A stretch of 64,000 bases of DNA from Maribacter algicola (GTDB lineage: Bacteria > Bacteroidota > Bacteroidia > Flavobacteriales > Flavobacteriaceae), in NCBI RefSeq assembly GCF_003933245.1, contig NZ_QUSX01000004.1:1-64000 (forward strand), given 5' to 3'. Numbering within the stretch: the stretch's first letter is position 1; every line of letters starts with the position of its first letter. Both the position numbers and the translations under genes were made by a program. Below are positions 27,838 to 54,772 of the stretch, piece by piece. The notes beneath the pieces are model-generated. The model saw only the letters and a list, made by a program, of their open reading frames with translations, did no database searches and was not told where the DNA came from.

Positions 27838-27938
27838 AAAAAAATGCTATGAAAAAGTTTTAATCATAATCACGTTTGATTATTTATTGGTTAGGTTGTT
27901 TGAAAACGTGCTTTCCCTCCGAAAGCACGTTTTTTAGT
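27838..27938 (+). ncRNA. Candidate small RNA, copy A of a three-copy family
   Basis: The 5' box AATGCTATGAAAAAG (27843-27857) is followed by a hairpin ATAATCA-cgtt-TGATTAT (27866-27883), a box TTAGGTTGTTTGA, and a 13-bp terminator stem AAAACGTGCTTTC/GAAAGCACGTTTT (27903-27933) with a T-run. The same order of boxes occurs at 54541 and 54687 with different stem sequences. The ATG inside the box gives only four codons (MKKF), so a coding role is unlikely. The downstream gene has a separate promoter element at 27950, so the transcript probably ends at the hairpin. Confidence 0.6.
27903..27936 (+). terminator. Terminator of small-RNA copy A
   Basis: A 13-bp perfect stem around the loop CCTCC, followed by six T on the plus strand. 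Confidence 0.85.
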
Positions 27939-27949
27939 CTAAATCCGCA

Positions 27950-27957
27950 TATTTTTG
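27950..27957 (+). promoter_or_regulatory. Putative -7 element, TATTTTTG
   Basis: Matches TAnnTTTG, 31 bp before the ATG of the TetR-like gene and just after the terminator of small-RNA copy A. Confidence 0.5.
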
Positions 27958-27988
27958 TAAGAAACCCTAATACTCAAAGAATTAAGAT

Positions 27989-28642
27989 ATGGCTACGAAG
28001 AACAAAAAAATTACGAAGGAGGAAATCATTTCAAAATACATGGACTATGTGCTTGAGCATGAAAAGGAACCCAAAACGGTATATAAATTCTGCAAGCAAC
28101 ATGAAATCCCAGAATCCGATTTTTATAAATTCTTTGCGTCCATCCCCGCTATTAAGAAAGGTATTTGGAACACCTTTTTCACTAATACCATTGCATTGAT
28201 GAAAAAGAACAAGGACTACGAATCCTTTGCAAACAGGGACAAATTATTGACATTTTTCTATACGTTTTTCGAGATGTTGACCCTCAACAGAAGTTATGCC
28301 CTCTTTACGTTGAACCAAGGCGGCAACCAGCTTAAGAACATGGAGCAACTAAAGGAATTGAGAAAGCACCTGAAAGAGTTTGCCAAAGAATTGATCGTGG
28401 ATGGAAACCAGCAAAAAACCAGTAAGATTACCAAACACAATCCTTCCATTTTCTCAGAAGGAGCTTGGCTGCAATTTCTGTTCCTTTTAAAATTCTGGAT
28501 GAACGATGAATCTCAGGGATTTGAAAAGACAGACCTCGCGATTGAGAAATCCGTCAATACCGTATTTGACCTATTCGACAATACTCCATTGGACAACCTT
28601 GTCGACTTTGGAAAATTTCTTTACAAGGAGACCTTTGCCTAA
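27989..28642 (+). CDS. TetR-like regulator, C-terminal-domain type
   Basis: 217 aa. Residues about 10-60 form a TetR-like helix-turn-helix with a weak consensus (IISKYMDYVLEHEKEPKTVY, HEIPESDFYKFFASIPAIKKGIW). The remainder is helical and matches the TetR C-terminal ligand-binding type that accompanies UbiB-family kinase genes in Flavobacteriia. It lies 18 bp before the kinase gene, so the two form an operon. Whether it still binds DNA is uncertain; the recognition helix lacks the usual small residues. Confidence 0.78.
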   Translation: MATKNKKITKEEIISKYMDYVLEHEKEPKTVYKFCKQHEIPESDFYKFFASIPAIKKGIWNTFFTNTIALMKKNKDYESFANRDKLLTFFYTFFEMLTLNRSYALFTLNQGGNQLKNMEQLKELRKHLKEFAKELIVDGNQQKTSKITKHNPSIFSEGAWLQFLFLLKFWMNDESQGFEKTDLAIEKSVNTVFDLFDNTPLDNLVDFGKFLYKETFA

Positions 28643-28660
28643 TATTAAAAGAATTCAACA

Positions 28661-29968
28661 TTGAAGACACTTGATAAAATCCCTACGGGAAAAATCGAAC
28701 GCGCCAGTAAATTGTTCAAGACGGGCGTGAAAATAGGAGGGAACTATGCCAAATATTATGGTAAGAAAATAGTAAATCCGGAATTAACAAGGGATGAATT
28801 GGACAATGACAACGCAGGCGATATCTACGACGGACTTAAAAGTCTAAAAGGCAGTGCACTGAAAGTTGCCCAAATGTTAAGTATGGAGAAAAACCTGCTT
28901 CCCAATGCCTATGTAGAAAAGTTTTCGCTTTCGCAGTTTTCCGTGCCACCCTTATCGGCGCCGCTAGTGCGAAAAACTTTCAAAAAATACCTGGATAAAT
29001 ATCCAGAGGAGGTTTTCGATACTTTTGAAAAGGACTCCGTAAATGCTGCAAGTATCGGACAGGTACATCGTGCCACTAAAGATGGCAAGGATTTGGCCGT
29101 TAAAATACAGTATCCCGGCGTGGCTGAAAGTATCAGCAGCGATCTCGCCCTGGTGAAGCCCGTGGCTTTGCGCATGTTCAACTTGCAGGGAAAGGATTCC
29201 GATAAATACTTTAAGGAGGTAGAGGATAAATTACTCGAAGAGACCAATTATCTTTTGGAAATTCAACAGAGCAAGGAAATTACCAACAAGTGTAGCCATA
29301 TAGAAAACTTACGATTTCCCAATTATTACGAGGCTCTTTCCAGTGATCGGATTATTACCATGGATTGGATGACCGGTAGCCATCTAAGCGAGTTCACTAA
29401 GACTGGTTTTTCACAGGAAGTAGGGAATAAGTTGGGTCAGACCCTCTGGGATTTTTATATGTTTCAAATACATGGGTTAAGAAAGGTGCATGCAGACCCA
29501 CATCCCGGTAATTTTTTGGTCAATTCCAATGGGGAGCTGGTCGTCATCGATTTTGGATGCATCAAGGAGGTGCCCGATGATTTTTACAATCCCTACTTTG
29601 AACTGGCCAAAAAGGAGAATATTTTCAACGATGCCATTTTTACCGAAAAGCTATACCAGCTTGAAATCTTGACCCCCTCTGATACCCAAAAGGAAATAAC
29701 ATTTTTTAAAAACCTTTTTCATGAAATGTTAAGCCTGTTCACATCCCCGTTCCATGAGGAGACCTTTGACTTTGGCAGTGCCGATTTTTGGGGGAAGATT
29801 GCGGCCTTGAGCGAGCAATATGCATCGGATAAACAAATACGTAAAATGAACGGAAACAGGGGTTCCAAGCACTTTTTATACATGAACAGGACCTTCTTCG
29901 GACTATACAATTTGTTGAACGACCTAAAGGCCGAAATTCAGGTGAATCATTTTCAGAAGTATCTGTAA
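28661..29968 (+). CDS. AarF/ABC1/UbiB family atypical kinase
   Basis: 435 aa from a TTG start (MKTLDKIPTGKIERASK); no earlier in-frame start fits. Conserved ABC1 motifs are visible: LKGSALKVAQMLSME (KxGQ-like motif, here KVAQ), VNAASIGQVHRA (alanine-rich loop), DLAVKIQYPGV (Lys of the nucleotide site), LEETNYLLE, VHADPHPGNFLV (catalytic Asp/Asn) and VIDFGCIKEV (metal-binding DFG). Family members support quinone synthesis or lipid handling at membranes. The pairing with the TetR-like gene is the only clue to its role here. Confidence 0.9.
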   Translation: MKTLDKIPTGKIERASKLFKTGVKIGGNYAKYYGKKIVNPELTRDELDNDNAGDIYDGLKSLKGSALKVAQMLSMEKNLLPNAYVEKFSLSQFSVPPLSAPLVRKTFKKYLDKYPEEVFDTFEKDSVNAASIGQVHRATKDGKDLAVKIQYPGVAESISSDLALVKPVALRMFNLQGKDSDKYFKEVEDKLLEETNYLLEIQQSKEITNKCSHIENLRFPNYYEALSSDRIITMDWMTGSHLSEFTKTGFSQEVGNKLGQTLWDFYMFQIHGLRKVHADPHPGNFLVNSNGELVVIDFGCIKEVPDDFYNPYFELAKKENIFNDAIFTEKLYQLEILTPSDTQKEITFFKNLFHEMLSLFTSPFHEETFDFGSADFWGKIAALSEQYASDKQIRKMNGNRGSKHFLYMNRTFFGLYNLLNDLKAEIQVNHFQKYL

Positions 29969-30062
29969 GTGCAACAAGCTTTTTTAAAATGGATGTGAAA
30001 TTCGTAATTGTTGCTATATTGCACTGCTTGTATGGGCAATAAATACGGCTAAAATTCACAAT

Positions 30063-31070
30063 ATGTACAATTCAAAAATTACAGGTCTGGGCTATTATGT
30101 CCCGGATAATGTGGTAACCAACGATGATCTTTCCAAAATAATGGATACTAACGATGCTTGGATCCAAGAGAGAACCGGTATCAAGGAACGTAGGCATGTC
30201 ATCAAGGGCGAGGACACCACTACCACAATGGGAGTAAAGGCTGCCAAGATCGCCATTGAGCGCGCCGGTATTGATAAAGATGATATCGATTTTATCGTTT
30301 TCGCCACCCTAAGCCCTGATTACTATTTTCCAGGACCCGGCGTACTGGTACAGCGGGATTTGGATATAAAAACCGTGGGGGCCTTGGATGTCAGGAACCA
30401 ATGTTCCGGGTTCGTATACGCTATTTCCGTGGCGGACCAATATATTAAAACAGGGATGTATAAGAACATACTGGTCATTGGTTCCGAGCTGCATTCCCAT
30501 GGATTGGATATGACAACAAGGGGCAGGGGCGTTTCCGTAATTTTTGGAGACGGTGCCGGTGCTGCCGTTTTGAGTAGGGCAGAAAATGAGGAAGAAGGAA
30601 TCCTTTCCACCCATTTACATTCCGAAGGGCAGCATGCCGAAGAGCTTTCCTTGATAGCTCCCGGTATGGGAAAACGATGGGTATCGGATATCATAGCGGA
30701 TAATGACCCTAACGATGAATCCTACTTCCCCTACATGAACGGGCAATTTGTGTTTAAAAATGCCGTAGTCCGATTTAGCGAGGTGATCATGGAAGGTCTA
30801 AAGAAAAACGGCTTGCAACCAACGGATATTGATTTGTTGGTGCCACATCAGGCCAATCTTAGGATTTCACAGTTTATTCAGAATAAATTCGGCCTTACCA
30901 ATGATCAAGTATTCAACAATATTATGAGTTACGGAAATACCACGGCCGCTTCCATTCCCATAGCATTGACCGAAGCTTGGGAAGCTGGAAAGGTAAATAA
31001 AGGGGACTTGGTCGTACTGGCAGCGTTTGGTAGTGGATTTACTTGGGGCAGCGTCATTATTAGATGGTAA
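30063..31070 (+). CDS. 3-oxoacyl-ACP synthase III family protein (FabH-like)
   Basis: 335 aa. The catalytic triad is intact: Cys114 in DVRNQCSGFVYA, His262 in LLVPHQANLRIS and Asn292 in SYGNTTAASIP. NDAWIQERTGIKERR near the start is typical of the family. The length exceeds that of standard FabH (about 317 aa), and the gene is not next to plsX or rpmF. It may therefore be the housekeeping initiator of fatty-acid synthesis or a second copy with other acyl substrates. It stands alone, 94 bp after the UbiB-family gene. Confidence 0.88.
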   Translation: MYNSKITGLGYYVPDNVVTNDDLSKIMDTNDAWIQERTGIKERRHVIKGEDTTTTMGVKAAKIAIERAGIDKDDIDFIVFATLSPDYYFPGPGVLVQRDLDIKTVGALDVRNQCSGFVYAISVADQYIKTGMYKNILVIGSELHSHGLDMTTRGRGVSVIFGDGAGAAVLSRAENEEEGILSTHLHSEGQHAEELSLIAPGMGKRWVSDIIADNDPNDESYFPYMNGQFVFKNAVVRFSEVIMEGLKKNGLQPTDIDLLVPHQANLRISQFIQNKFGLTNDQVFNNIMSYGNTTAASIPIALTEAWEAGKVNKGDLVVLAAFGSGFTWGSVIIRW

Positions 31071-31174
31071 GCAAATATACCTTGAAGTAATCCTAAATTC
31101 TTTTGACAATTAAGGGAAGCAACGGGATTTGTGTCCCATCATATATAGAGGTAATACTATACTCTTTAATCAGT

Positions 31175-31206
31175 AAAAAACCCGCGGCCTAAACCACGGG
31201 TTTTCC
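31175..31206 (-). terminator. Terminator-like hairpin 1
   Basis: AAAACCCGCGG pairs with CCACGGGTTTT (one mismatch) around CCTAAA. The minus strand has a six-T tract after the stem, the plus strand four T. Best read as a minus-strand terminator, though it could also act after the FabH-like gene. Confidence 0.65.
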
Positions 31207-31339
31207 TCAGGATAAAGTCTAAAGGGAAAACCAACCAATTCCCAAATAGAGAACTTTCTCCCTAGTATGATAGACTTATAAAAGAGGCTAATGTTACAGG
31301 TAGAATACCGTTTAACATTTTTTTGATGCCTTAAAAAGC

Positions 31340-31365
31340 GAAACCCGGACAAAAGCCCGGGTTTC
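31340..31365. terminator. Terminator-like hairpin 2
   Basis: GAAACCCGG (31340-31348) pairs with CCGGGTTTC (31357-31365). The T-runs on either strand are interrupted, so direction is unclear. Confidence 0.5.
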
Positions 31366-31534
31366 TTGCTGATAAGCTATACTAAACACTAACCATTAAC
31401 TATAAATATATAGCACTATCAACTTTTTATATATTTTACCAAAAATAAAAATAGACCTTCCTGTAATACTTATAACAATATAAAGACTATTATTCCTGAA
31501 AATAGTTACAGAACTTATAAAATTTAACACCCTG

Positions 31535-31900
31535 ATGAAAATGGATACAACGCTGGTATTTGGTGCATCCTTAAAACCAAACCGTTACAGTAATTTAGTC
31601 ATTCATAGATTGGTTGGTAACGGAATTAAAACCGAAGCATTCGGTTTAAAATCTGGAGTTATCGGGGGGGTGCAAGTTAAAACCAATATCGAAGATTTCC
31701 AAAATATTCAGACCATAACTCTCTATTTAAACCCACACAATCAAAAAGGGTATTACGATACGATTATTGGGTTACGACCAAACCGGGTTATTTTTAATCC
31801 GGGTACAGAAAATCCTGAATTTCAGAACTTGCTTGAATCCAAGGGAATAGAGGCTCAAGTTGCCTGTACCTTGGTCTTGCTGGCGACCGGTCAATATTAA
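31535..31900 (+). CDS. CoA-binding domain protein (CoA_binding_2)
   Basis: 121 aa, a single Rossmann-like domain. TTLVFGASLKPNRYSNLVIHRL forms the nucleotide-binding start, and GLRPNRVIFNPGTENPEF matches the end of the CoA-binding fold of the YccU type. Relatives bind CoA but are not known to catalyse a reaction by themselves. It is a single gene that converges on the symporter gene at 31930. Confidence 0.87.
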   Translation: MKMDTTLVFGASLKPNRYSNLVIHRLVGNGIKTEAFGLKSGVIGGVQVKTNIEDFQNIQTITLYLNPHNQKGYYDTIIGLRPNRVIFNPGTENPEFQNLLESKGIEAQVACTLVLLATGQY

Positions 31901-31929
31901 CATTTTTCTTAATCGGAAGTAGATTCGGT

Positions 31930-33390
31930 TTAGGGACTTTTTCTAATTAGCCAAAGGCCGATGAATGTAATTAACCCGTTAAGGGGTAGAAGTTCGTACC
32001 CAAATTCATAGCCTCCTATCAACTCCGTCGGAATTTTTGCCAATCCGAAAATAATCAATACCGAAACTAGGGCAACTACCCATGAAAGACCATCCTTAAT
32101 TTTATGTTTAGTGAAAATTCCAAAGGCGAACAACCCCAAGAGTGGTCCGTAGGTGTACGAAGCAACGGTCAGTAGGCCATCGATAACATTTCGGTCCAAT
32201 ACATATTTAAAGGTTATGACTACTAGAATGAGTAGAACACTCATGCCAATGTGGGTGCGTCTTCTAAGCTTTTTGGCCTCTTGCTCCGTTTTCTTGCCAG
32301 TTCCCAAAAAGTCGACGCAAAAAGAGGTCGTCAAGGACGTTAGGGCACTGTCCGCACTACTGTAGGCCGCAGCAATAAGGCCCAGCATAAAGGTGGCGGC
32401 TACCGTAATACCTAATCCGCTGTTGAGGGCAATTTCCGGAAAAAGAAGGTCCGTCTTGGGTTGGCCTTCCATTAAAGGCATCCCAATTTGATATTTGTCC
32501 GCATAGATAAATAATAGCGCTCCCAAGAGCATGAACAGAAAGGTTACGAAAACAAGCACAAAACTGAACGATACCATATTTTTTTGGGCATCCCCTAAAT
32601 TTCTGCAGGTAAGGTTTTTTTGCATCATGTCCTGGTCCAATCCGGTCATACAAATGGTTACGAACATGCCTCCTATAAAAGACTTTAGAAAATGGTTTTT
32701 GGCAAAGAAATCATCCATTACAAAGGTTTCGCTATAGGAGGCAAATTCCTTTGAAGTTAAAAATTCGCCCATGGACCAATCCAACTTGTCCAAAATGAAA
32801 TAAATGGAAAGGCCAACGGATATCAACATGAACAAGGTCTGTAGGGTGTCCGTCCATACAATGGTCTTGATGCCGCCTTTGAAGGTATATATCCAAATCA
32901 AGAGAATTGAAAGTGTCACCGTGATTTCAAAAGGAACGTTCCATGCGTCGAATACGAATTGCTGCAAGACGATTGCCACCAGAAAAAGTCGGAATGCGGC
33001 ACCCAACACTCGGGATACGAAGAACGATATCGCTCCCACCTTATAACTGACAAAACCAAAGCGTTCGTCCAAATATTCGTATATGGAGGTCACATTTTGG
33101 CGATAGTAGATGGGAAGCAGGACATAGGCCGTCACAAAGTATCCCACCAAATAACCAAAAACGACCTGTAGGTAACTGAATTTGGATGCTTCCACCCATC
33201 CTGGAACCGATATAAAGGTTACCCCGGATAACGAAGCGCCTACCATCCCAAAAGCTACCAAATACCATGGGGATTGCTTCCCTGCCTTAAAGAAATCCTC
33301 ATTGGAATCGTTTTTTCCGGTGAAGTAGGAGATTAAGATTAGCACTGCAAAATATCCCCCAATAAGAAGAAGAATGTGTGATGCGGTCAT
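31930..33390 (-). CDS. Sodium:solute symporter (SSS family)
   Basis: 486 aa with about 13 membrane segments. The family signature region is visible: [22 protein letters not shown] in TM2-3, [36 protein letters not shown], and [21 protein letters not shown] with the sodium-site serines. It imports an unknown organic solute with sodium. Flavobacterial relatives are often annotated with sugars or sialic acid, but nothing here identifies the substrate. It diverges from recR with 68 bp between starts. Confidence 0.92.
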
Positions 33391-33458
33391 GGTAAATTAT
33401 TTGTGGTCAAAGTACAAAAAGTAAAAATAGTGCGTAATTTTACCGGAAACGCAAAGCA

Positions 33459-34079
33459 ATGGATTTTTCTTCCAAATTGTTGGAAAATGCCGTAAATGAA
33501 ATGTCCCAATTACCAGGTATTGGTAAGCGGACCGCACTACGTTTGGTCCTTCATATCTTAAAGCAACCGGAGCGGCAGACCGAAGATCTGTCCAATGCCC
33601 TGATGAAATTGAGGAACTCTGTTCAGTTTTGTAAGAAGTGCCATAATATTTCTGATACGGAACTATGTGAAATCTGTTCCAACCCAAAACGGGATGCTTC
33701 CTTGGTCTGTGTGGTAGAGGATATCAGGGACGTTATGGCCATAGAAAATACCGGTCAATATAGAGGTCTATACCACGTTTTGGGAGGGAAGATATCGCCT
33801 ATAGAAGGCATGGGGCCGCAGGACCTGACTATCTCCTCATTAGTGCATAAAGTGAAGCAAGGGGAGGTAAAGGAACTGATTCTCGCATTAAGTTCCACGA
33901 TGGAAGGGGACACCACCAATTTCTATATCTTTAAACAATTGGAGGGAACTGGGGTAAAGACTTCCACCATAGCTAGGGGCATTGCCGTTGGGGACGAATT
34001 GGAATACGCAGATGAAGTCACATTGGGTCGTAGTATTTTGAACAGGGTACCTTTTGAAGGAAGTTTCAATAACAATTGA
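33459..34079 (+). CDS. recR: Recombination protein RecR
   Basis: 206 aa. It has the helix-hairpin-helix [20 protein letters not shown], a four-cysteine zinc finger ([17 protein letters not shown]) and the Toprim domain ([26 protein letters not shown]). It works with RecF/RecO to load RecA at single-strand gaps. Length and motifs are normal. It is transcribed divergently from the symporter. Confidence 0.96.
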
Positions 34080-34126
34080 TTCCGATCAAAGTTGTTACAA
34101 AAACATAAAAAGGTATTGAATTTTAT

Positions 34127-34134
34127 TATTTTTG
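34127..34134 (+). promoter_or_regulatory. Putative -7 element, TATTTTTG
   Basis: Fits TAnnTTTG, 37 bp before the E2 start, in the gap after recR. Confidence 0.5.
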
Positions 34135-34171
34135 CAAAAAAAATACACGAAAAGGACGTTAGATTGTTGAT

Positions 34172-35530
34172 ATGTCAAAATTCGAATTAAAATTACCAAG
34201 AATGGGTGAAAGCGTGGCGGAAGCTACATTAACATCCTGGTTAAAGGAGGTAGGGGACAAAGTGGAAATGGATGAGGCCATCTTTGAAATTGCTACGGAC
34301 AAAGTGGATAGTGAGGTTCCTAGTGAGGTGGATGGGGTTTTGATCGAAAAAAGATTTGATGTCGATGATATCGTCAAAGTGGGACAGGTTGTAGCCGTCA
34401 TAGAAATAGAGGGTGGTTCTGGAAATGACATTGGGTTAACAAGGGATACTGAGGAAACTGCTGAGGAGGAAATGGCCTCCATAGCGGAGGAGGCTGTGGT
34501 AAAGGCCCAGGAAACGGTTGGCGGTCCTGTTCCGGACTATGCGGCATCTGAAAGGTTCTATTCGCCCCTAGTGAAAAATATAGCAAAGGAGGAAGGAGTT
34601 TCTTTTTCCGAGCTGGAATCCATTTCCGGTACCGGAAAGGAAGGTAGGGTCACCAAAAACGATATTCTCGATTATATTGCCGGAAGAAGCAACGGGGCCC
34701 AAGTAAAAACCGAGCCCAAGAAAACCCCCGATGCTTCTCAGCCCGTACAAAGTAAAATAGAGGAGGTATTAACGCCCACAAATAATTCTATAAAGGAGGA
34801 GACCCAGATTAAAATAGGGGCCGGGGATGAGATAATACCCATGTCCAGAATGGGCAAATTGATTGCCAAGCACATGACGGAAAGTGTTTCCACTTCGGCA
34901 CATGTTCAAAGTTTTATTGAGGTGGATGTGACCAATATCGTCAACTGGAGAAACAAGGTAAAGGATGCCTTTGAAAAGCAGGAAGGTGAAAAACTGACAT
35001 TTACCCCAATTTTCATGGAAGCTGTGGCGAAGGCCTTGAAAAAATACCCCATGATGAATATTTCCGTGGATGGGGACAATGTCATAAAAAAGAAAAACAT
35101 CAATATAGGTATGGCGGCGGCCCTTCCAGATGGTAACCTGATAGTGCCAGTAATAAAGAATGCGGACCAATTGAATTTGGTGGGCATGGCCAGGGTTGTG
35201 AACGATTTGGCGGAGCGATCTAGAAAAAATGCCCTAAAACCGGACGAAGTTAAAGATGGTACCTATACGGTAACCAATGTAGGTACTTTTGGAAGTGTTT
35301 TTGGCACTCCAATCATCAATCAGCCGCAAGTAGGAATCATGGCGTTAGGGGCGATTAGAAAGATTCCTTCCGTGATAGAAACGGAGGAAGGGGATTTCAT
35401 TGGTGTAAGAAGTAAGATGTTCCTGTCCCACAGTTATGATCATAGGGTGGTCAATGGTGCCTTGGGCAGCATGTTTGCCAAGGCCGTGGCAGATTATTTG
35501 GAGGCATGGGATGTGAATAGGGAAATTTAA
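34172..35530 (+). CDS. Dihydrolipoamide acyltransferase (2-oxo acid dehydrogenase E2)
   Basis: 452 aa. The lipoyl domain occupies residues 1-78 with the lipoylated Lys44 in EIATDKVDSEVPSE. A peripheral subunit-binding domain lies at about 130-167 (FYSPLVKNIAKEEGVSFSEL), then a linker, then the catalytic domain from about 215 (IPMSRMGKLIAKHMTES). The active site reads SHSYDHRVVNGALG, so the usual HxxxDG is HRVVNG with Asn in place of Asp. It transfers acyl groups to CoA in a pyruvate- or branched-chain-type complex. No E1 or E3 gene adjoins it, which is common for the branched-chain-like E2 of Flavobacteriia. Confidence 0.92.
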   Translation: MSKFELKLPRMGESVAEATLTSWLKEVGDKVEMDEAIFEIATDKVDSEVPSEVDGVLIEKRFDVDDIVKVGQVVAVIEIEGGSGNDIGLTRDTEETAEEEMASIAEEAVVKAQETVGGPVPDYAASERFYSPLVKNIAKEEGVSFSELESISGTGKEGRVTKNDILDYIAGRSNGAQVKTEPKKTPDASQPVQSKIEEVLTPTNNSIKEETQIKIGAGDEIIPMSRMGKLIAKHMTESVSTSAHVQSFIEVDVTNIVNWRNKVKDAFEKQEGEKLTFTPIFMEAVAKALKKYPMMNISVDGDNVIKKKNINIGMAAALPDGNLIVPVIKNADQLNLVGMARVVNDLAERSRKNALKPDEVKDGTYTVTNVGTFGSVFGTPIINQPQVGIMALGAIRKIPSVIETEEGDFIGVRSKMFLSHSYDHRVVNGALGSMFAKAVADYLEAWDVNREI

Positions 35531-35632
35531 TGCTTGTTTTAAAAAAAAGATCTTTATAGAACTAGCCCCATCCTATTACTAAAACCTTAAAAAAGACAAA
35601 GGCTGTAAATTCTGCGGCTTCGCACATTAAAC

Positions 35633-35640
35633 CTATATTT
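35633..35640 (+). promoter_or_regulatory. Putative -7 element, TATATTTG
   Basis: Matches TAnnTTTG, 17 bp before the ATG at 35658 of the exonuclease gene; supports that ATG over the TTG at 35649. Confidence 0.5.
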
Positions 35641-35657
35641 GCCATAAATTGGAATCC

Positions 35658-36434
35658 ATGGAGCTAAAGCTTACCAGACCTATTTGTTTTTTTGATTTGG
35701 AGACGACAGGAACCAATGTGGCCAAAGACCGAATCGTGGAAATATCCATATTGAAGGTTTTTCCCAACGGCAACAAGGAGAGTAGAACATGGTTGGTAAA
35801 TCCTGAGATGGATATTCCTGAAGATGTGGTGGCCATCCATGGCATTTCAAATGAAAAAGTTGCCAACGAACCCACTTTCAAGGAGCTGTCCAAGGAAATC
35901 TATAGGATGATAAAAGACAGCGATTTGGCCGGTTTTAATTCCGATAGATTTGATATCCCTTTGCTGGCAGAGGAATTGTTAAGGGCGGATATAGACTTCG
36001 ATATGAAGAATACAGTTTCCGTTGATGTGCAGACCATATTTCACAAAATGGAGAAAAGGACATTAGAGGCCGCCTACAAGTTTTACTGTGACAAGGACCT
36101 TACGGACGCCCATAGTGCCGAGGCCGATACAACAGCCACGTATGAGGTATTGCTTTCGCAGTTGGAACGTTATCCAGACCTTGAAAACAACATAAAAAAG
36201 CTGTCCGAATTCTCAAAAAGAAAACAGTTCGTGGACTTTGCCGGATTTATTGCATTGGATGAGGAGGGCGATGAAGTCTTTTCCTTTGGGAAACACAAGG
36301 GAAGAAAGGTACACGATGTTCTGGAAAAGGAGCCGGGGTATTTCGGATGGATCTTAAATGCCGATTTCCCGTTGTACACCAAAAAAATTCTTACCCAGAT
36401 AAAGCTGAGTAAACTAAACAATAAACTTAGTTAG
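35658..36434 (+). CDS. DnaQ-like 3'-5' exonuclease with C-terminal DUF3820-like domain
   Basis: 258 aa from the ATG at 35658. The exonuclease part (1-165) has Exo I CFFDLETTGT, Exo II GFNSDRFDIPLL and Exo III DAHSAEADTTATYEVL, giving the DEDD acidic set. After a linker, residues about 205-255 (FSFGKHKGRKVHDVLEKEPG, YFGWILNADFPLYTKKIL) resemble DUF3820, as in the separate small protein at 61415. It is probably a DNA repair or RNA-processing exonuclease, and the tail could bind nucleic acid. It is followed 10 bp later by the FAH gene, starting a likely operon to cinA. Confidence 0.88.
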   Translation: MELKLTRPICFFDLETTGTNVAKDRIVEISILKVFPNGNKESRTWLVNPEMDIPEDVVAIHGISNEKVANEPTFKELSKEIYRMIKDSDLAGFNSDRFDIPLLAEELLRADIDFDMKNTVSVDVQTIFHKMEKRTLEAAYKFYCDKDLTDAHSAEADTTATYEVLLSQLERYPDLENNIKKLSEFSKRKQFVDFAGFIALDEEGDEVFSFGKHKGRKVHDVLEKEPGYFGWILNADFPLYTKKILTQIKLSKLNNKLS

Positions 36435-36444
36435 CAGTAAGAGT

Positions 36445-38644: not shown

Positions 38645-38653
38645 GGAGGATTG

Positions 38654-44065: not shown

Positions 44066-44079
44066 TTGGTCCTTAACTA

Positions 44080-45268: not shown

Positions 45269-45276
45269 TACTTTTG
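45269..45276 (+). promoter_or_regulatory. Putative -7 element of rimO
   Basis: TACTTTTG fits TAnnTTTG, 37 bp before the rimO ATG. The same octamer precedes pyrG and the small gene at 8691. Confidence 0.55.
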
Positions 45277-45313
45277 CACCCGCCTTGGAAATAGGTATAA
45301 AGCAGGATATTAG

Positions 45314-46615: not shown

Positions 46616-46631
46616 TTCACTAATTTCAAAA

Positions 46632-46826: not shown

Positions 46827-46844
46827 ATTTGTCTTGTTTTTGGA

Positions 46845-49295
46845 CTAATTCACCATGAACAATGCATTGGCAAAAAATAATTTACCGTTCTCCCAAAAAC
46901 CTCTAAAAAGAGGATTGTCTATCATATAAATCACATGGCCCCTGCCCATTCGTTCCGTACCAAAGATAAGGGTTTCCGCAATTTTCTTCTTGGCGTCGCT
47001 ACCTGCAAATCCGGATACGGGATTGTTCTCGCCTTTAGCGAGGTACACGGCATTTCCACCTTCTAGATAATTATAGGAACGGTCTCCCAATTTAAGCGTA
47101 AAATAAGGTTCCTCATATCCATAGGCCAAGGGATTCGTAGTGTCAACGGTGGTCTTAAATATGGCGCCTGTAATGGCGGATTTTATATACTCACGTTCCG
47201 AGGTATCGAATGCCTGTAATTGGCTGGTAGAATCCTTTTTTTGTTCCTTTTCCTTGATGCCAAACCCTTTTTGTTTCGCCAGGCCGTCCACTGCGCCGCC
47301 CATGGCAATCAACTTACCACCTTTGTTCACCCAGTCCTTTATTTTGTCGGCCACTTTTTCGGTAAAAAAACTGTAATATCCCCATCCATCGGGCAAAATG
47401 AGGATATCATATTTTGAAAGGTCTACCCGGTTAAAATAGCTTTCGTCCAATACAGAAATAGGATAGTTCAATTGTTGCTCAAAGAAGTGCCATATTTCGC
47501 CAAATCGCAACGTAGAGGTTGGCTCTCCAGATAAAACCGCAATTCTTAGTTCTTGGAGTACTTCAACATAACTGGATCCAAAGTCCTTTCCGCTATCCAC
47601 AAATCCCGTACTGGCCGGTGTTAGCTTTTTTAAATACTTCTTAGAGGCACCGTCCAAAATTTGTATGAAGTCATCGATATTTTTATTATCAGCCTTGGTA
47701 ATTATCAAACTTCCCCTATCATAGTTGATACCATCCAAACTAAACGGTTTTTGAGCATACCTTACGCGAACTTTTTTGTTTAAAAGTTCCGCCAGGAATT
47801 TGGCATCCTTCATACTGTTCCAATCCGCTAAATACCCATAGCTGTTGGGGTTGGTTATACCATAGGTCTCATTGGAGGATTCATACGGTGTCTGTTGTAC
47901 GCTGCTTTCGGTAGCCAGGGCATCCAGACCATAAGCATAGGGCAAGGACCATGCGGTAATATCGTAGGTGACGGAATCGCTTAACTTGGCCTTGGGTTCG
48001 AATAAAACTTTTGCCAGGGTTCCTTTTGTCTGGTCCGTGGAAACCACTAGACTATTTTTTGAGGCCCTGAGACTGCCCGAAGAGGATGTTGAGTAATTAA
48101 AGCCCTTATAACTGGCGTTGCTCCCCGTATTATATTCTATCCCGTGTTGATCTAATAAATTAGCCAGCGCTTCCAGTTTATCTGGATTGCCGTTGAGGAT
48201 AAAATGCTGAGGTCTAAAATTCTTTTGCTGGTAGAATTTTCTGAATTCCGTGTTCAATCTCCCTATATTTTTACTAGCCACTTCTACCGTTGAAAGTCCC
48301 GTTGTATGATGATGGGCGATTCGGTCTTTTAAGGTAAGGGTATCACCAATACTGTTTATAATTCCCAATCCGGCCCTGCCGCTACCTCCTTGTTCGTAGG
48401 TCATACCTATACCTCCATTGTAGGTTGGGTAGGTATCGCCATAGCTAGGATATAGCAGGTCAAAAACCTCCTTTGTAAAATAAAACCAGCCGTTGGCATC
48501 AAAATACTTCGCATGGTTTTTACCGATGGTCTCCTGGAACTCCCGTTGGAAATCCGTAATTACCTCATGATAAGGTTCCGCTGCAGGTGCAAAGTAGTAA
48601 GGATTGTCCACCCCTTGCTCATGGAAATCTACATGTACATGCGGTAGCCATTTATTGTACTGTTTTAATCGTTGCTGACTTTCCACTTGGGTAAGCCAGG
48701 CCCAGTCGCGGTTGAGGTCGAACATATAATGGTTACTTCTGCCGCTCCACCAACCTTCGTGGTGTTCCTTGCTGTTTGGGTCCACATTGAATGGCGAGTT
48801 TTTATATTGGTTGTACCAGTTTACGTATCGGTCTCTACCATCTGGATTTATACATGGGTCCATTATTACCACTAAGTCTTCTAAATAGTCCTTTTTGCTC
48901 GTCAATAAGTCGTAAATGGTTTGCATGGAAGCTTCCGTACTTACACTTTCGTTTCCATGGACATTATAGCTAAGCCAGACAATTGCCTTGTTTGGAGCTC
49001 CTTCCCCTTTGATGTTGTCTAAATGCGCATTCCTGATTTCCTCCAAATTTTTCATGTTGGATTCCGTCGATATAAAGGCCAACATTAATGGCCTTCTTTC
49101 ATTGGTCTCCCCATATTGCAACAATTGCATTCTGTTTGGTTCTTTCTGTGCCAAATACTGATAGTAGTCCACCACTTGGTGATGCCTGGTAAACTGGGTA
49201 CCCAAATCATAGCCCAAAAACTCAGAGGGTGATTTTAACTGGGCAAGCAATACGAGGGGAAGTAATAGAAATAAAGAAGATAGAAATTTTTTCAT
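46845..49295 (-). CDS. M14 family zinc carboxypeptidase with C-terminal GATase1-like domain
   Basis: 816 aa with signal peptide MKKFLSSLFLLLPLVLLAQ. The M14 domain (about 35-350) shows zinc ligands in NVHGNESVSTEAS (His, Glu) and VDFHEQGVDNPYYF (His). FAPAAEPY and GGIGMTYEQGGSGRAG carry the catalytic-side Tyr/Glu region. Residues about 585-700 (IAVLSGEPTSTLRFGEIW, YDILILPDGWGYYSF, WVNKGGKLIAMGGA) resemble a class I glutamine amidotransferase-like fold. It is likely a periplasmic or surface exopeptidase. It diverges from bshC across 259 bp. Confidence 0.92.
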   Translation of the reverse strand: MKKFLSSLFLLLPLVLLAQLKSPSEFLGYDLGTQFTRHHQVVDYYQYLAQKEPNRMQLLQYGETNERRPLMLAFISTESNMKNLEEIRNAHLDNIKGEGAPNKAIVWLSYNVHGNESVSTEASMQTIYDLLTSKKDYLEDLVVIMDPCINPDGRDRYVNWYNQYKNSPFNVDPNSKEHHEGWWSGRSNHYMFDLNRDWAWLTQVESQQRLKQYNKWLPHVHVDFHEQGVDNPYYFAPAAEPYHEVITDFQREFQETIGKNHAKYFDANGWFYFTKEVFDLLYPSYGDTYPTYNGGIGMTYEQGGSGRAGLGIINSIGDTLTLKDRIAHHHTTGLSTVEVASKNIGRLNTEFRKFYQQKNFRPQHFILNGNPDKLEALANLLDQHGIEYNTGSNASYKGFNYSTSSSGSLRASKNSLVVSTDQTKGTLAKVLFEPKAKLSDSVTYDITAWSLPYAYGLDALATESSVQQTPYESSNETYGITNPNSYGYLADWNSMKDAKFLAELLNKKVRVRYAQKPFSLDGINYDRGSLIITKADNKNIDDFIQILDGASKKYLKKLTPASTGFVDSGKDFGSSYVEVLQELRIAVLSGEPTSTLRFGEIWHFFEQQLNYPISVLDESYFNRVDLSKYDILILPDGWGYYSFFTEKVADKIKDWVNKGGKLIAMGGAVDGLAKQKGFGIKEKEQKKDSTSQLQAFDTSEREYIKSAITGAIFKTTVDTTNPLAYGYEEPYFTLKLGDRSYNYLEGGNAVYLAKGENNPVSGFAGSDAKKKIAETLIFGTERMGRGHVIYMIDNPLFRGFWENGKLFFANALFMVN

Positions 49296-49318
49296 CTGAT
49301 GCTATTTAGTTTTTATCG

Positions 49319-49352
49319 GGTCAGATGCAATTCGCCAAAATCATCTTGGTAG
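49319..49352. repeat. Intergenic element shared with 6483-6530
   Basis: GGTCAGATGCAATTCGC differs by one base from the copy at 6483 and is followed by ATCTTGGT; here the spacer is 14 bp shorter and lacks the CCCGATAGC palindrome. ATCTTG and CAAGAT (49343-49362) can pair. The rest of the 259-bp gap before bshC shows no gene. Confidence 0.45.
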
Positions 49353-49554
49353 ATATCAAGATTTGATAGGGCTCATTTCATACAGTGTCGATATAATGTT
49401 CAAAAGTCTCAAATCTACCAAATTATTGATAACTTTTATCATGCTAAATGGGGTTTTCGACGATAATATAAACTATTTCATCTAGGCTAATTAACGTATT
49501 TTTAGGAACTGTAAGGAAGGAGTGTTTTATATTTACGTGGATTAACTTTTTTAT

Positions 49555-51159
49555 ATGGATATTGATTGTTTGCCTTTTCGAAAAACAGGCTATTTTTCTA
49601 AATTGATTTGTGATTATATTGAGGAAAAAGAAGCACTTGTACCATTATACGATCAATTTCCCAAACTGGAAAATTTTGAAACCCAAATAAGGGGTAAGAA
49701 GGCAAGTTTTTCCGTGGCCAATAGAAAGACTTTGGTAAAAAGCTTGGAGCATCAATATAAAGATGTAAAAATCTCCAAGCAGACCTCTACAAACATACAA
49801 TCATTAAGCTCCCATAATACCTTTACAGTCACCACCGGGCATCAACTCAACCTCTTCACGGGACCCCTCTATTTTCTTTATAAAATCGTATCCACGATCA
49901 ACCTTGCAAAGGTTTTAAAGGAGAACTATGCCGATTACCATTTCGTTCCGGTTTATTGGATGGCAACGGAAGACCATGATTTTGATGAAATAAATTACTT
50001 CAATTTTCAGGGAAAAAAAATTCAATGGAACAAAGAGGTCTCGGGAGCTGTTGGCCGATTGTCAACTCAAGGTTTGGATGAAGTATTTGAAATTTTTTCG
50101 CTCGGCGTTGGGGGTAGTAAAAATGCCACGTATCTAAAGGAGCTTTTTGCTAAGGCTTACTTGGAGCATGAAACATTAACCGCAGCCACTCGATTCTTGG
50201 CCAATGAACTTTTTAAGGAACAAGGTTTGGTCATTGTGGATGGGGATGATAAAAGCCTTAAAAAACTGTTGGGGCCCTACGCAAAAAAGGACATTTTTGA
50301 ACAGGTATCGTTTGAGAAAGTATCGGATAAAATATTGGAAATTCAGCAAATTGATGCGGATTATCCTATTCAGGTAAACCCTAGGGAAATCAATTATTTT
50401 TATTTAAAAGACAATATTCGGGAAAGAATAATTGAACAGGATGGTACTTATTTTGTAAATGATACCCAGTTATCGTTTTCCAAAGAGGAATTGATTGCCG
50501 AGTTAGAGGAACATCCTGAGCGATTTTCTCCCAATGTGGTAGCAAGGCCATTGTATCAAGAAGTGATATTGCCGAATATATGTTACATTGGAGGCGGAGG
50601 GGAATTGGCCTATTGGCTTGAGCTAAAATCGTCCTTTGAAGCGATGAACGTACCATTTCCCATACTTTTACTCCGTAATTCGACCTTGATAATTACCGAA
50701 AAACAAAACGAAAAATTGCAAAAATTAAATGTTTCCCATGCAGACATTTTCTTGAAGCAACATAGTCTGATTAATAAGAAAATCAGGGAAATATCCAATA
50801 TCGATATCGATTTTACACCTCAAAAAGAGCTTTTAAAGGAACAATTTAAGGGAATGTACGAGCTTGCGGAACAGACGGACAAATCCTTTCTAGGTGCGGT
50901 AAAGGCGCAGGAGGTGAAACAAAAGAAGGGTCTTGATAATCTGGAAAAAAGATTGCTTAAGGCCCAAAAAAGAAAATTGGAAGACCATGTGGTACGTTTG
51001 AGCGATATACAGAATCAATTGTTTCCCGGTCAATCCCTTCAGGAACGACAATTAAACTTCTCCGAACTCTATTTGGAATACGGAGAGGAATTGATTCCTA
51101 TGCTTTTAAAATCCCTTAGTCCTTTGGATTTAACGTTCACGATAATCACAAAAAAATAA
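49555..51159 (+). CDS. bshC: Bacillithiol biosynthesis cysteine-adding enzyme BshC
   Basis: 534 aa, normal length. Conserved parts include TVTTGHQLNLFTGPLYFLYK, YHFVPVYWMATEDHDFDEIN, RPLYQEVILPNICYIGGGGELAYW, and a C-terminal helical region (QEVKQKKGLDNLEKRLLKAQ). It adds cysteine to glucosaminyl-malate in the last step of bacillithiol synthesis, the low-molecular-weight thiol of many Bacteroidetes. A TTATATTTAC stretch upstream is near the promoter consensus. The GT39 gene follows 5 bp later. Confidence 0.96.
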   Translation: MDIDCLPFRKTGYFSKLICDYIEEKEALVPLYDQFPKLENFETQIRGKKASFSVANRKTLVKSLEHQYKDVKISKQTSTNIQSLSSHNTFTVTTGHQLNLFTGPLYFLYKIVSTINLAKVLKENYADYHFVPVYWMATEDHDFDEINYFNFQGKKIQWNKEVSGAVGRLSTQGLDEVFEIFSLGVGGSKNATYLKELFAKAYLEHETLTAATRFLANELFKEQGLVIVDGDDKSLKKLLGPYAKKDIFEQVSFEKVSDKILEIQQIDADYPIQVNPREINYFYLKDNIRERIIEQDGTYFVNDTQLSFSKEELIAELEEHPERFSPNVVARPLYQEVILPNICYIGGGGELAYWLELKSSFEAMNVPFPILLLRNSTLIITEKQNEKLQKLNVSHADIFLKQHSLINKKIREISNIDIDFTPQKELLKEQFKGMYELAEQTDKSFLGAVKAQEVKQKKGLDNLEKRLLKAQKRKLEDHVVRLSDIQNQLFPGQSLQERQLNFSELYLEYGEELIPMLLKSLSPLDLTFTIITKK

Positions 51160-51164
51160 GTAGT

Positions 51165-52550
51165 TTGTTACAAGGTCTGTGGCCAAAAAGGATAATTATA
51201 CTTGTCGTTTTATCCGTTTTGGTGATTGCGGCAAGTACTATTTTTAAGGCAGCCGTAGAATTGGAAGACGCTGAACAGGCCTATTATTCGCAATGGTTAC
51301 GTTGGGGATATGATGACCAGCCGCCTTTATATACTTGGATACAATATTTCTTTAACCAGGTACTTGGATTCAACAAATTGTCTTTTTCCTTTTTACGGGG
51401 AATTATATTCGGGGGTATTCTGTTGTTGTTATACCAATTTGCCAAGAAAATGCACAAAGATGTTCAAAAGGCCGGAATCACGGTTTTTATGATGGTCTTG
51501 ATACCTGTTTTTATTGATTTCACCTTTAGGCGGCTGTCCCATACTTCTCTTTTGTGTTTTTCAATATTGGCAACGTACCTCATATTGGAAAGGCTGCTTA
51601 CTAAGAAAACAGTTTGGAATTATATCCTTTTTGGTGTTTGTATCGCTTTTGGTCTATTGTCCAAATACAACTATGTCTTGTTTTTATCGGCCTTTGCCAT
51701 AGTCGTTCTATTTGATGGACAACTTAGGAAGGTAGTTTTCAATGGGAAAATATTAGCAACGATTCTATTGGCCATGGTTCTTGTGGCACCCCATTTCTAC
51801 TGGCTTTTTGGGCCAAATGAAAATTGGTCCATGGTACGGGAAAGTATACAAGATAAAACTGGGGATGGTACTGCAGATTATTTATTAGGAATTACACCGG
51901 TAATCTTGATAATTAAGGGTTTAATAGCTTTAATGGCACCATTACTTCTGGTTTTCTTGGTTTTGGTCCTATTGAAAAAAGTGACTTTACAACGATCTAA
52001 ATGGGATTGGTTTTCGAAGCTTTTTGTAGTTCAAATTTTGATTTTATTGCTATTTTTCTTGCTAGTAAAGGCACAAAAGGTTGAGGTAAGATGGTTATTG
52101 CCCTTATTGCTACCTTTCATAATACTGTGGGCCAAATCATTTCAATTTGAAAATATTATAAAAATCAAAAGGTATGCTTTTGTGACCTTTATTGTAATAA
52201 TAGGCTTTCAGTTCTTAAGAACGCCCATGGAAAAAGTATTGGGCATTCCGTCTTCCGTTCATTTCGGGTTTGAACCGATTTCCAATATATTACGTCAGAA
52301 TTATTCCGGCAAAGAATGGGTATTACCCAACGTTACCTACGCTGGAAATATTAAATTGCTAAACCCGAACAGGTTGATTATTTCCAATGACGACTTTTCC
52401 TTTGGGACAAGCATCAATGGCAAGAACAGAGTTTTTGTGTATATAGGGAAGATCCCAGATGAATGCAGAAAACCTACCGACAGTATATTAGGTTTTGGTA
52501 GGGAAAAGGACACCTTATTTTTTGTGCCGAATCTAAATGAATTGAATTAA
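51165..52550 (+). CDS. GT39/ArnT-like membrane glycosyltransferase
   Basis: 461 aa from a TTG start. About ten to twelve membrane segments follow a first periplasmic loop with VELEDAEQAYYSQWLRWGYDDQPPL, where the acidic residue pair and the YxxQPPL stretch are typical of GT39/GT83 enzymes that use lipid-linked sugars. GLLSKYNYVLFLSAFAIVVL is also characteristic. It would transfer a sugar to a lipid or protein outside the inner membrane. The target is unknown. Confidence 0.85.
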   Translation: MLQGLWPKRIIILVVLSVLVIAASTIFKAAVELEDAEQAYYSQWLRWGYDDQPPLYTWIQYFFNQVLGFNKLSFSFLRGIIFGGILLLLYQFAKKMHKDVQKAGITVFMMVLIPVFIDFTFRRLSHTSLLCFSILATYLILERLLTKKTVWNYILFGVCIAFGLLSKYNYVLFLSAFAIVVLFDGQLRKVVFNGKILATILLAMVLVAPHFYWLFGPNENWSMVRESIQDKTGDGTADYLLGITPVILIIKGLIALMAPLLLVFLVLVLLKKVTLQRSKWDWFSKLFVVQILILLLFFLLVKAQKVEVRWLLPLLLPFIILWAKSFQFENIIKIKRYAFVTFIVIIGFQFLRTPMEKVLGIPSSVHFGFEPISNILRQNYSGKEWVLPNVTYAGNIKLLNPNRLIISNDDFSFGTSINGKNRVFVYIGKIPDECRKPTDSILGFGREKDTLFFVPNLNELN

Positions 52551-52561
52551 AGGATTAAAAA

Positions 52562-53932
52562 ATGCACGATATAGATATAGACATGGTTGAAATGACCCTT
52601 GACGTGGTCAAATATGCCATCAACAGAATCACCCAGACCAATCCAGAGCTGGGCAAGCCAAAAACTGAGGCCGAACTTCGGAGATTGGTCGGGGAAACAG
52701 TCACTAATAGTGGAATAGGAGGGGAGAAGGCTTTTGAGCTGTTTAGGCAGGTTCTGGTCAAGGCCACGGTGCCTATTGACCACCCAAGACATTTGGCTTT
52801 TGTTCCTGCATCACCTACCAGAGCCGCCATTTTATTCGATTTGGTGACCTCGGCATCGAGCATCCACGGGGCCTATTGGATGGAAGGTGCAGGGGGAATT
52901 TTTTGTGAAAACGAGGCCATGAAGTGGTTGGTTTCACTTACGGGTATGCCAGAACCTGCTTTTGGCGTGTTCACCAGTGGGGGAACTGCCGCCAACTTAT
53001 CGGCTATAGTCGTGGCCAGGGAAAAATGGAGAAAAAATCCAAGGAACATAAATCATAAAGGAATTTTAATTACTTCCATTGGAGCGCATTCCTCCATCAA
53101 GGCCATGGCCAAGGTGATCGATGCAGATGTTTTGCTGGTAGCGTCCGAAGATGCCATGAGTCAATTGGCCTTGGAAGCGTTTTACAACAAATTACCGGAA
53201 ACTGAAAAAGCAAGGGTTTTTGCCGTTGTGGCCACAGGGGGCACTACAAATGCCGGGATTATTGATGAGTTGGATGGAATTGCAAACTTTTGTCGCTCCA
53301 AAAATCTCTGGTTTCATGTGGATGCTGCCTATGGTGGCGGTGCGCTTGCCGCAAAATCGGTACGTCATTTGTTCAAAGGAATAGAACTTGCGGACAGCGT
53401 TACCATCGATCCCCATAAGTGGTTGTTTTCTCCCTATGATTGTGGTGCAGTCATATATAAAAACCCGGAGGAGGCAAAGGAAGCCCATGCTCAGGAAGGT
53501 TCCTATTTGGAAATTTTTAAGGATGAAGGTGCGCATGGATTTAATCCGTCCGATTATCAAATCCAATTGACCAGACGTTTAAGAGGTCTGCCACTTTGGT
53601 TTTCCTTGGCGACCCATGGTACTGAAAAATACGAGTGGGCTGTAGAGCAGGGTATCAAATTAGCAAAAATAGCTGGAGAGCTCATAGAAAAGAATCCATT
53701 AACGGAATTGGTCAGGGAACCCAGTCTTTCCTGTGTATTGTATAGGAGAATTGGCTGGTCCGCAGATGATTATAGAAACTGGACCTATAGGAACCACGAA
53801 GCTGGCTTTGCATTGGTAACGCCTACCAAATGGAAGTCTGCCAAAGGTTACGAAACCGTATCCCGATTTTGTTTCATCAATCCGGATACAATGCAAAAGG
53901 ATATTGAGGATATATTAAAAAGTATGGAGTAG
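52562..53932 (+). CDS. PLP-dependent decarboxylase (group II)
   Basis: 456 aa. The PLP lysine is Lys286 in SVTIDPHKWLFSPYDCG; His176 in SIGAHSSIKAM stacks on the cofactor and Asp254 in WFHVDAAYGGG binds its ring nitrogen. The family covers glutamate, aromatic amino-acid and diaminobutyrate decarboxylases; GAYWMEGAGGIFCENEAMKWL fits aromatic-type or tyrosine-decarboxylase-like members, so substrate assignment is open. It lies 12 bp after the GT39 gene. Confidence 0.9.
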   Translation: MHDIDIDMVEMTLDVVKYAINRITQTNPELGKPKTEAELRRLVGETVTNSGIGGEKAFELFRQVLVKATVPIDHPRHLAFVPASPTRAAILFDLVTSASSIHGAYWMEGAGGIFCENEAMKWLVSLTGMPEPAFGVFTSGGTAANLSAIVVAREKWRKNPRNINHKGILITSIGAHSSIKAMAKVIDADVLLVASEDAMSQLALEAFYNKLPETEKARVFAVVATGGTTNAGIIDELDGIANFCRSKNLWFHVDAAYGGGALAAKSVRHLFKGIELADSVTIDPHKWLFSPYDCGAVIYKNPEEAKEAHAQEGSYLEIFKDEGAHGFNPSDYQIQLTRRLRGLPLWFSLATHGTEKYEWAVEQGIKLAKIAGELIEKNPLTELVREPSLSCVLYRRIGWSADDYRNWTYRNHEAGFALVTPTKWKSAKGYETVSRFCFINPDTMQKDIEDILKSME

Positions 53933-53940
53933 CGGGGAAA

Positions 53941-54483
53941 CTAGGGAACCAAAAACTCACCCTTCCAATCATCTTCTTTTGCATAGGCTATTCGTAAGTG
54001 ATGCGGTCTTTTTAACCTAAGGTATTCGATTCTGAACGGTTCAATTTCAATCATACAAAAGAAATGATCTCCAGTTAGATATTCTAGGTTATCGGGATTT
54101 TTCAAGGTGCTTCCCGGAGCGGTCTCCGTAGTGTAGTCCTTCTTGTTACTTTCGGGGATTTCCTTCCACATGGTCTGAAGTTTGCTTTCATCGGTTACTA
54201 CCGAAGCAAGTCCTTCAATTTTCACTTGCAATAGTTTCTCGGGATGATAGAACAAAAGACTTACGTTAGGGTTTTCCGTAATATGCATCACCTTTTTGGA
54301 GCGCTTGTCTGTATAAAAACAAAGGTGTCCATTTTCGAACACATGTCTAAGGACTACGGTCCGTAATCGTGGTAATTTGTCAACTCCCACCGTGGCAAAT
54401 GTGCCAAATCTAAACGGGTGTCCTTTTTCGTCAACACCTTTTTTCAGTTCTTCGTGAAGTTCGTTCCAAAAACTGTCTGTCAT
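53941..54483 (-). CDS. Pyridoxamine 5'-phosphate oxidase-related FMN-binding protein
   Basis: 180 aa, split-barrel flavin fold. PRLRTVVLRHVFENGHLCFYTDKRSKKVMHI, across two strands, corresponds to the FMN-binding core, and FRIEYLRLKRPHHLRI ends the protein as in Alr4036-type members. True PdxH has a longer C terminus, so this is probably a flavin reductase-like relative. It converges on the decarboxylase with 8 bp between stops. Confidence 0.87.
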   Translation of the reverse strand: MTDSFWNELHEELKKGVDEKGHPFRFGTFATVGVDKLPRLRTVVLRHVFENGHLCFYTDKRSKKVMHITENPNVSLLFYHPEKLLQVKIEGLASVVTDESKLQTMWKEIPESNKKDYTTETAPGSTLKNPDNLEYLTGDHFFCMIEIEPFRIEYLRLKRPHHLRIAYAKEDDWKGEFLVP

Positions 54484-54540
54484 TTTTATTTATAAAAATA
54501 CAAAAACAAGGTAGGGTTTTTTACGGCTTGGTTGTTATTA

Positions 54541-54646
54541 ATACAAATTGCTATGAAAAAGAAAGTTTAGTTGATGATTCATTATTAGGTTGGTTTTTGA
54601 TTTTAATTAGTAAGCTCGGGGTGGTTCCCGAGCTTTTCTTTTTTTT
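54541..54646 (+). ncRNA. Candidate small RNA, copy B
   Basis: ATACAAATTGCTATGAAAAAG (54541-54561) matches copy C at 20 of 21 positions and copy A in the GCTATGAAAAAG core. Then come a weak hairpin TGATGA-ttca-TTATTA (54572-54587, two G-U pairs), the box TAGGTTGGTTTTTGA, and a terminator stem AAGCTCGGG/CCCGAGCTT (54612-54635) followed by a long T-run. The ATG gives only MKKKV. No plus-strand gene lies downstream before a terminator, so a stand-alone RNA is likely. Confidence 0.62.
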
Positions 54647-54650
54647 AATG
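54612..54650 (+). terminator. Terminator of small-RNA copy B
   Basis: A 9-bp stem around GTGGTT followed by TTCTTTTTTTT. Confidence 0.88.
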
Positions 54651-54686
54651 TAAGGTTTGGAAGTTTTTTCGACCAATTGATCAGGA

Positions 54687-54772
54687 ATACAAAATGCTAT
54701 GAAAAAGAATTTTTTCAGTATTGTATTCCAATTACGTTGGTTGAGAAAGCCCGGTATTCGCCGGGCTTTTAA
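54687..54772 (+). ncRNA. Candidate small RNA, copy C
   Basis: ATACAAAATGCTATGAAAAAG (54687-54707) is followed by GTATTG-tattc-CAATTAC (54718-54735, one bulge), the box TACGTTGGTTGAGA and the terminator stem AAAGCCCGG/CCGGGCTTT (54746-54769). It is only 40 bp after copy B, in the same direction, so the two may be one tandem transcript unit or two promoters. All stems differ from copies A and B in sequence but pair. Confidence 0.62.
54746..54771 (+). terminator. Terminator of small-RNA copy C
   Basis: A perfect 9-bp stem with the loop TATTCG, followed by four T. Confidence 0.8.

Follow-up and report, generated by a model that had tools for sequence, protein, structure and literature searches.

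In Maribacter algicola, three intergenic elements, here termed A, B, and C, share a short box whose exact complement recurs in a further putative small RNA (sRNA), termed R and encoded elsewhere in the same genome. The elements lie in a window of 64,000 nucleotides (nt), i.e., the whole stretch of DNA analyzed, for which genes, folds, covariation, conservation, complementarity, and synteny were computed. A spans positions 27828 to 27935, B about 54541 to 54646, and C about 54684 to 54770. Each contains the box GCTATGAAAAAG (at 54550 to 54561 in B; for A and C see Table 1), a GGTTG-type second box 3' of it, and a terminator made up of a hairpin and a T run. This order had already been recognized in a first-pass annotation of the DNA and was retained, with corrected stems and with conserved parts that start further upstream than had been assumed. 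In A and C, the box sits in the loop of a hairpin; in B, it lies close to the 5' end. In Maribacter, A is located between htpG and a TetR-ABC1 gene pair, and the region of B and C is flanked by a pyridoxamine-oxidase-like gene and a SIMPL gene. Since both of these are on the opposite strand, B and C stand alone.

Table 1. Sequence features of elements A, B, and C (positions in the window)
Element	Feature	Position	Strand	Support or remark
A	Degenerate -7-like promoter box TAATTTTA	27817..27824	+	Imperfect copy of TAnnTTTG
A	Helix 5' strand GTGATTA	27828..27834	+	Covariation
A	Box GCTATGAAAAAG in hairpin loop, complementary to R	27846..27857	+	
A	Helix 3' strand TAATCAC	27867..27873	+	Covariation
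A	Conserved single strand TATTGGTTAGGTTGTTT	27885..27901	+	Conservation
A	Terminator	27903..27935	+	
B	Two-part promoter-like motif GTAGGG ... TTGTTAT	54511..54538	+	12/12 B sequences; 12/299 genomes, control 0
B	Box and flanks CAAATTGCTATGAAAAAGAA, complementary to R	54544..54563	+	
B	Weak hairpin TGATGATTCATTATTA	54572..54587	+	Seen in the sequence; without RNAalifold support
B	Conserved stretch TTAGGTTGGTTTTTGATTTT	54585..54604	+	Conservation
B	Terminator	54612..54646	+	RNAalifold support
C	Two-part promoter-like motif GTAAGG ... CGACC(AA)	54650..54676	+	11/11 C sequences
C	Helix 5' strand GGAATACAA	54684..54692	+	Covariation
C	Box GCTATGAAAAAG in hairpin loop	54696..54707	+	
C	Helix 3' strand TTGTATTCC	54721..54729	+	Covariation
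C	TTGGTTG box	54737..54743	+	Could pair with CGACCAA (54670-54676) if the transcript begins upstream of CGACCAA
C	Terminator	54746..54770	+	

In A, the strand preceding the box pairs with the strand following it, which leaves the box in the loop. Across 48 A sequences, the strands of this helix paired with their own partners at -11.55 kcal/mol compared to -7.96 kcal/mol with permuted partners, and 0 of 10,000 permutations were as low. C shares this design (GGAATACAA with TTGTATTCC), and its helix gave -10.79 versus -8.98 kcal/mol (n = 11; again 0 of 10,000), with two sequences (L021 and L030) trimmed at a GGTTG further downstream than in the rest. At 24 A loci outside the genus, a set that may include more than one locus per genus, the helix reached a z-score of -8.0, compared to 0.4 and -1.4 for two control segment pairs. 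These three strand-permutation tests were alignment-free, whereas two alignments were fitted to a model; in the one of 36 A sequences, both-sided changes were found at all 8 of 8 helix pairs. Examples of compensatory variants are GTGGTTATG/CATAACCAT (L036) and GTGATTG/CAATCAC (L015), as well as TTACAGAA/TTCTGTAA (L063) and CAATTAAG/CTTAATTG (L075) outside the genus. The first-pass annotation had instead taken the internal stems between the two boxes as the main ones and had described them as always pairing. The internal hairpin ATAATCA/TGATTAT does exist in A (mean of -3.1 kcal/mol versus -2.4 kcal/mol when permuted; 0 of 10,000 as low), is weak and local, and attained -5 kcal/mol or better in 23 of the 48 sequences; it was rejected as the main fold, the strong covariation residing in the helix that flanks the box. 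Its counterpart in B (TGATGA/TTATTA) depends on two G-U pairs, and RNAalifold supported the terminator of B alone. A, B, and C were initially collected via the exact box, and invariance of the box within those sets is therefore a product of selection.

Of the 48 A sequences, 32 carry TAnnTTTG upstream of the box (1.64 expected), the copy in the window being imperfect. In flavobacteria, this motif is described as the -7 box of housekeeping promoters (PMC9723704). All 12 B sequences displayed GTAGGG-N13-16-[TG]TGTT, and all 11 C sequences displayed GTAAG-N13-18-CGAC. Two further B-type loci (L069 and L073), which fell outside the B class of the script and are not counted among the 12, both show GTAGGG by eye. 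A search for GTAGGGT ahead of the box retrieved 12 of 299 genomes of the family, from 12 genera, and nothing in the control. The motifs of B and C differ from the housekeeping promoter and are perhaps promoters of an alternative sigma factor of the extracytoplasmic function (ECF) type. Two additional box matches (L018 and L052), both resembling a gene start, were excluded from all three classes.

A could also be read as part of an mRNA, because within the genus it is positioned 5' of the TetR-type gene, with a terminator in between. Outside the genus, the downstream neighbor differs: among the 24 loci, TetR is next in 10 and FabH in 4, A lies behind the ABC1 gene in 8, and htpG alone or none of these neighbors was found in one locus each. 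Together with the opposite-strand genes next to B and C, this led us to reject a leader of a fixed neighbor. Reading frames opened by the ATG of the box also vary in length. They stop within 18 codons in 32 of 48 A sequences and run for 24 or more codons in the other 16; all 12 B frames end within 11 codons. A conserved peptide from A and B was rejected on these grounds. Six of 11 C sequences, near relatives within the genus, encode a common peptide of the MKKxFFxxVFxLxWL type, so that a peptide from C in that Maribacter clade is possible. This shared peptide is confined to those six, and no conserved small toxic peptide of the kind typical of type I toxin-antitoxin systems was seen in A or B. 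We therefore regard a role of A, B, or C as leader, attenuator, or short mRNA as highly improbable; this includes a toxin-antitoxin pair with a small peptide as the toxin and R as its RNA antitoxin. At the sequence level, promoter-like motifs, terminators, and the changing neighbors of A are features of trans-acting sRNA genes. The data thus favor the earlier proposal, in which the elements form a family of structured small RNAs and not a coding leader; the flanking helix, which keeps pairing through both-sided changes, supports it as well. At one locus of another genome (L238; G176:C80:393500-394400), two tandem boxes 172 nt apart each open a similar short frame (MKK..FYC..FVAK), with no obvious terminator.

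Homologues with compensatory changes, anticipated by the first-pass annotation, were found well beyond the genus. The pattern of the box followed after 14 to 44 nt by GGTTG matched three times in M. algicola, where the reversed control gave 0. Of 60 genomes, 32 had matches, namely 29 of 36 Maribacter genomes (M. algicola included) and three others; one of the latter (G036, outside the genus) carries a B element, and the matches in G042 and G052 were counted by pattern alone. The reversed control gave three matches across all 60 genomes. A model of the A type matched in 119 of 299 family genomes and 98 of 236 genera. The box was retained within 3 mismatches of 14 in 86 of 108 distinct A-type sequences (1.1 expected), drawn from 126 loci, of which 106 had been reached via the box-free 3' motif of A and 20 via a model containing the box. 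The survey behind this conserved 3' motif, TATTGGTTAGGTTGTTT, lists 80 of its 106 named stretches.

Besides A, B, and C, the M. algicola genome contains five other exact boxes, eight in total, and opposite one of these (L001) we found R. It lies outside the window on the minus strand of contig C1 (93151 to 93234), directly after dnaJ, and consists of a 5' hairpin, the strand TTTTCTTTTTCATAGCAATT, which is the reverse complement of GCTATGAAAAAG, and a terminator. In detail, a putative promoter TATATTTG is followed by the hairpin AATATTGG-GTAA-CCAATATT, the strand AATTTTCTTTTTCATAGCAATTTTTTT, and the terminator CCCATCC...GGGTGGG. No terminator was seen between dnaJ and R at this locus; R may therefore also belong to the dnaJ transcript, and read-through from dnaJ could add to its amount. 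Of 60 genomes, 36 contained the R pattern (G036 and 35 of the 36 Maribacter genomes), with one copy each and none in the control. A model of R, searched against 299 family genomes from 236 genera of Flavobacteriaceae, matched in 258 genomes and 207 genera; outside the family, the best match among 148 genomes of the order had an E value of 0.001. All 29 examined loci with the exact seed were located after dnaJ, and 28 of them lay ahead of an ABC-ATPase gene. Both-sided changes were found at 5 of 6 pairs of the R hairpin, with 75% of the alignment cells paired and the genus one column out of register; constancy of the seed in this alignment is a product of its collection via the exact seed. R is not universal, as two loci of another genus (L192 and L195 of g146) keep the terminator (CCCATCC...GGATGGG) after dnaJ without the seed.

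Several genomes contained more than one R match at E values up to 0.1 (eight in G400, five in G188, and three in G176), which constitute a family of R paralogues. Three contigs of a viral collection (L423:2983-3005, L424:382-404, and L425:479-501) also carry the R seed, each accompanied by its own hairpin and terminator. No dnaJ match was found on these contigs; one of them (L423) encodes a match to a tail tape-measure protein, and two proteins of another (L424) had no match.

When R was scanned for duplexes along both strands of the window, the best three sites were B (-26.7 kcal/mol), A (-20.2 kcal/mol), and C (-20.0 kcal/mol), followed by a fourth (-19.4 kcal/mol) on the minus strand, located at 18991 within a reading frame. 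Co-folding with R gained -17.7 kcal/mol for A and -21.1 kcal/mol for B, and none of 200 shuffled versions of R reached values as low. Co-folding thus supports an accessible complement of the R seed for A and B, not for C. Moreover, R was present in 85 of the 86 genomes with a strong A match (E ≤ 1e-4; 74.2 expected), and in 116 of 119 at E ≤ 0.01. Based on these observations, we propose that A, B, and C would be independently transcribed sRNAs that display the box, and that R would pair with them in the cell through the complementary strand between its hairpin and terminator. Such pairing would titrate R from other targets, perhaps mRNAs with the start region AUGAAAAAG, in which case A, B, and C would be sponges driven by two or more types of promoter. 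The phylum Bacteroidota is generally said to lack Hfq. We give about an even chance to the reading of the box as a docking site for R that makes A, B, and C its sponges.

Several observations weigh against this proposal. Only B stands out in the duplex scan, A and C leading the next site of the window by less than 1 kcal/mol. Since the box of C is closed in its predicted full-length fold, co-folding with R gained 0.0, a value that all 200 shuffles also reached; a loop-loop contact is outside that model. The co-occurrence of A and R may be inflated by ancestry and genome completeness. Among 105 loci found by the 3' motif of A, the box was complete in 47, changed to TTGCTATGAA in 14, partial in 22, and missing in 22, a few of the latter probably being chance matches outside the family. 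R was nevertheless intact with an exact seed in 25 of 25 genomes reached through A loci, most of which had been picked for box decay (the model that found R there contains the seed), and no compensatory change between the box and the R seed was found. Box substitutions kept pairing via G-U in 24 cases and not in 45 (among transitions, 24 and 12, respectively), which is weak evidence at most. Finally, the 3' motif of A is kept even where the R box has decayed, and A hence does something besides binding R.

Two further explanations have to be weighed here. A, B, and C might be structured sRNAs or protein ligands that match R without any function of this match, and the box might be a protein or ribosome site. 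Its sequence indeed resembles a start codon, AUGAAAAAG, with A-rich surroundings, and both the missing co-folding gain of C and the box variants without compensatory change in R fit such an explanation. On the other hand, box reading frames vary in length, and a perfect complement of at least 12 nt links a syntenic sRNA to three unlinked elements that are its best duplexes in the window; we regard a complementarity without a role as quite unlikely. Alternatively, the direction of control might be reversed, with A, B, and C regulating mRNAs via their second conserved stretch (of the TTAGGTTG type) and R silencing them as an anti-sRNA or sponge. A single R could control all three elements, and the persistence of TATTGGTTAGGTTGTTT in A without the box would be expected. 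However, R occurs in far more genera than A (207 versus 98 of 236) and is multi-copy in some genomes, and near-perfect mRNA complements of the second box of A (14 nt) were about as frequent as in the reversed control in 10 genomes. The reverse direction therefore appears rather unlikely to us.

For R as the regulator, the mRNA targets expected under titration were sought as well. Near-perfect targets in five genomes had forward and reverse counts close to the control, again a point against the sponge proposal, and the best near-perfect matches were the antisense strand of R itself and, in the M. algicola genome, element B. Start-like sites of this genome, most of them within other reading frames, paired with R at -11.6 to -18.7 kcal/mol, compared to -20.0 kcal/mol for one gene start in another genus. 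A lipoprotein gene of M. algicola starts with AATTACTATGAAAAAG (-15.9 kcal/mol with R). In the 3' region behind it (L004, about 1500 to 1560; G000:C1, about 995828), another exact box is followed by a terminator-like hairpin. A convincing mRNA target of R was not found in these searches.

More tentatively, and with less than even confidence, we envisage an old two-sided RNA circuit in Flavobacteriaceae, in which a master sRNA R after dnaJ, copied on viral contigs, would be held in check by the decoys A, B, and C under housekeeping-type and alternative promoters. R may also be linked to the chaperone. Small-RNA control in Bacteroidota is known mainly from Bacteroides. The dnaJ-syntenic sRNA and the RNAs with its exact complement are two concrete RNA families of a large marine lineage that can be tested as a pair, and the copies on viral contigs suggest a circuit worth taking over. 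The data suggest RNA-on-RNA control in an apparently undescribed circuit.

Rfam 15 (including Flavo-1, the family named for comparison in the first-pass annotation) yielded no match at the curated score in the window or in three R loci, and at E values up to 10 the three window loci gave weak matches to other families alone, Flavo-1 not being among them. A known Rfam family for A, B, C, or R was consequently rejected. Flavo-1, reportedly described by Weinberg in 2010 as an sRNA motif of Flavobacteriaceae, resembles our elements in kind and host family, but does not match those of the window. In the literature searched, at the level of titles and abstract beginnings, no description of A, B, C, or R was found; the kind (an sRNA and its sponge) is known, and these families were not found described. 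Rfp11 and Rfp18 of Flavobacterium psychrophilum, compared here by description alone, are likewise conserved flavobacterial sRNAs, Rfp11 having a promoter with an ECF-type motif and Rfp18 being described as pairing via its third stem-loop (PMC9723704). Like the putative sRNAs studied here, the FopS sRNAs of Bacteroides thetaiotaomicron form a Bacteroidota family of several members, with a terminator and a conserved seed that is exposed. Its seed, in a single-stranded 5' stretch, pairs near start codons and represses SusC-type mRNAs (PMC11697453). FopS has been deposited in Rfam according to the same paper, its presence in the copy used here being unconfirmed; our elements, which had no Rfam match, are set apart from it by description. 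Closest in kind are RNA sponges of base-pairing sRNAs, such as the RoxS sponge of Bacillus subtilis (PMC8216469) and a Caulobacter sponge (PMC12559287), which are reported to be small RNAs carrying the complement of the single strand of another sRNA, as do A, B, and C. In contrast to these, the several RNAs described here differ among themselves in fold and in promoter-type motifs and share a single site for a dnaJ-syntenic sRNA, which they would titrate.

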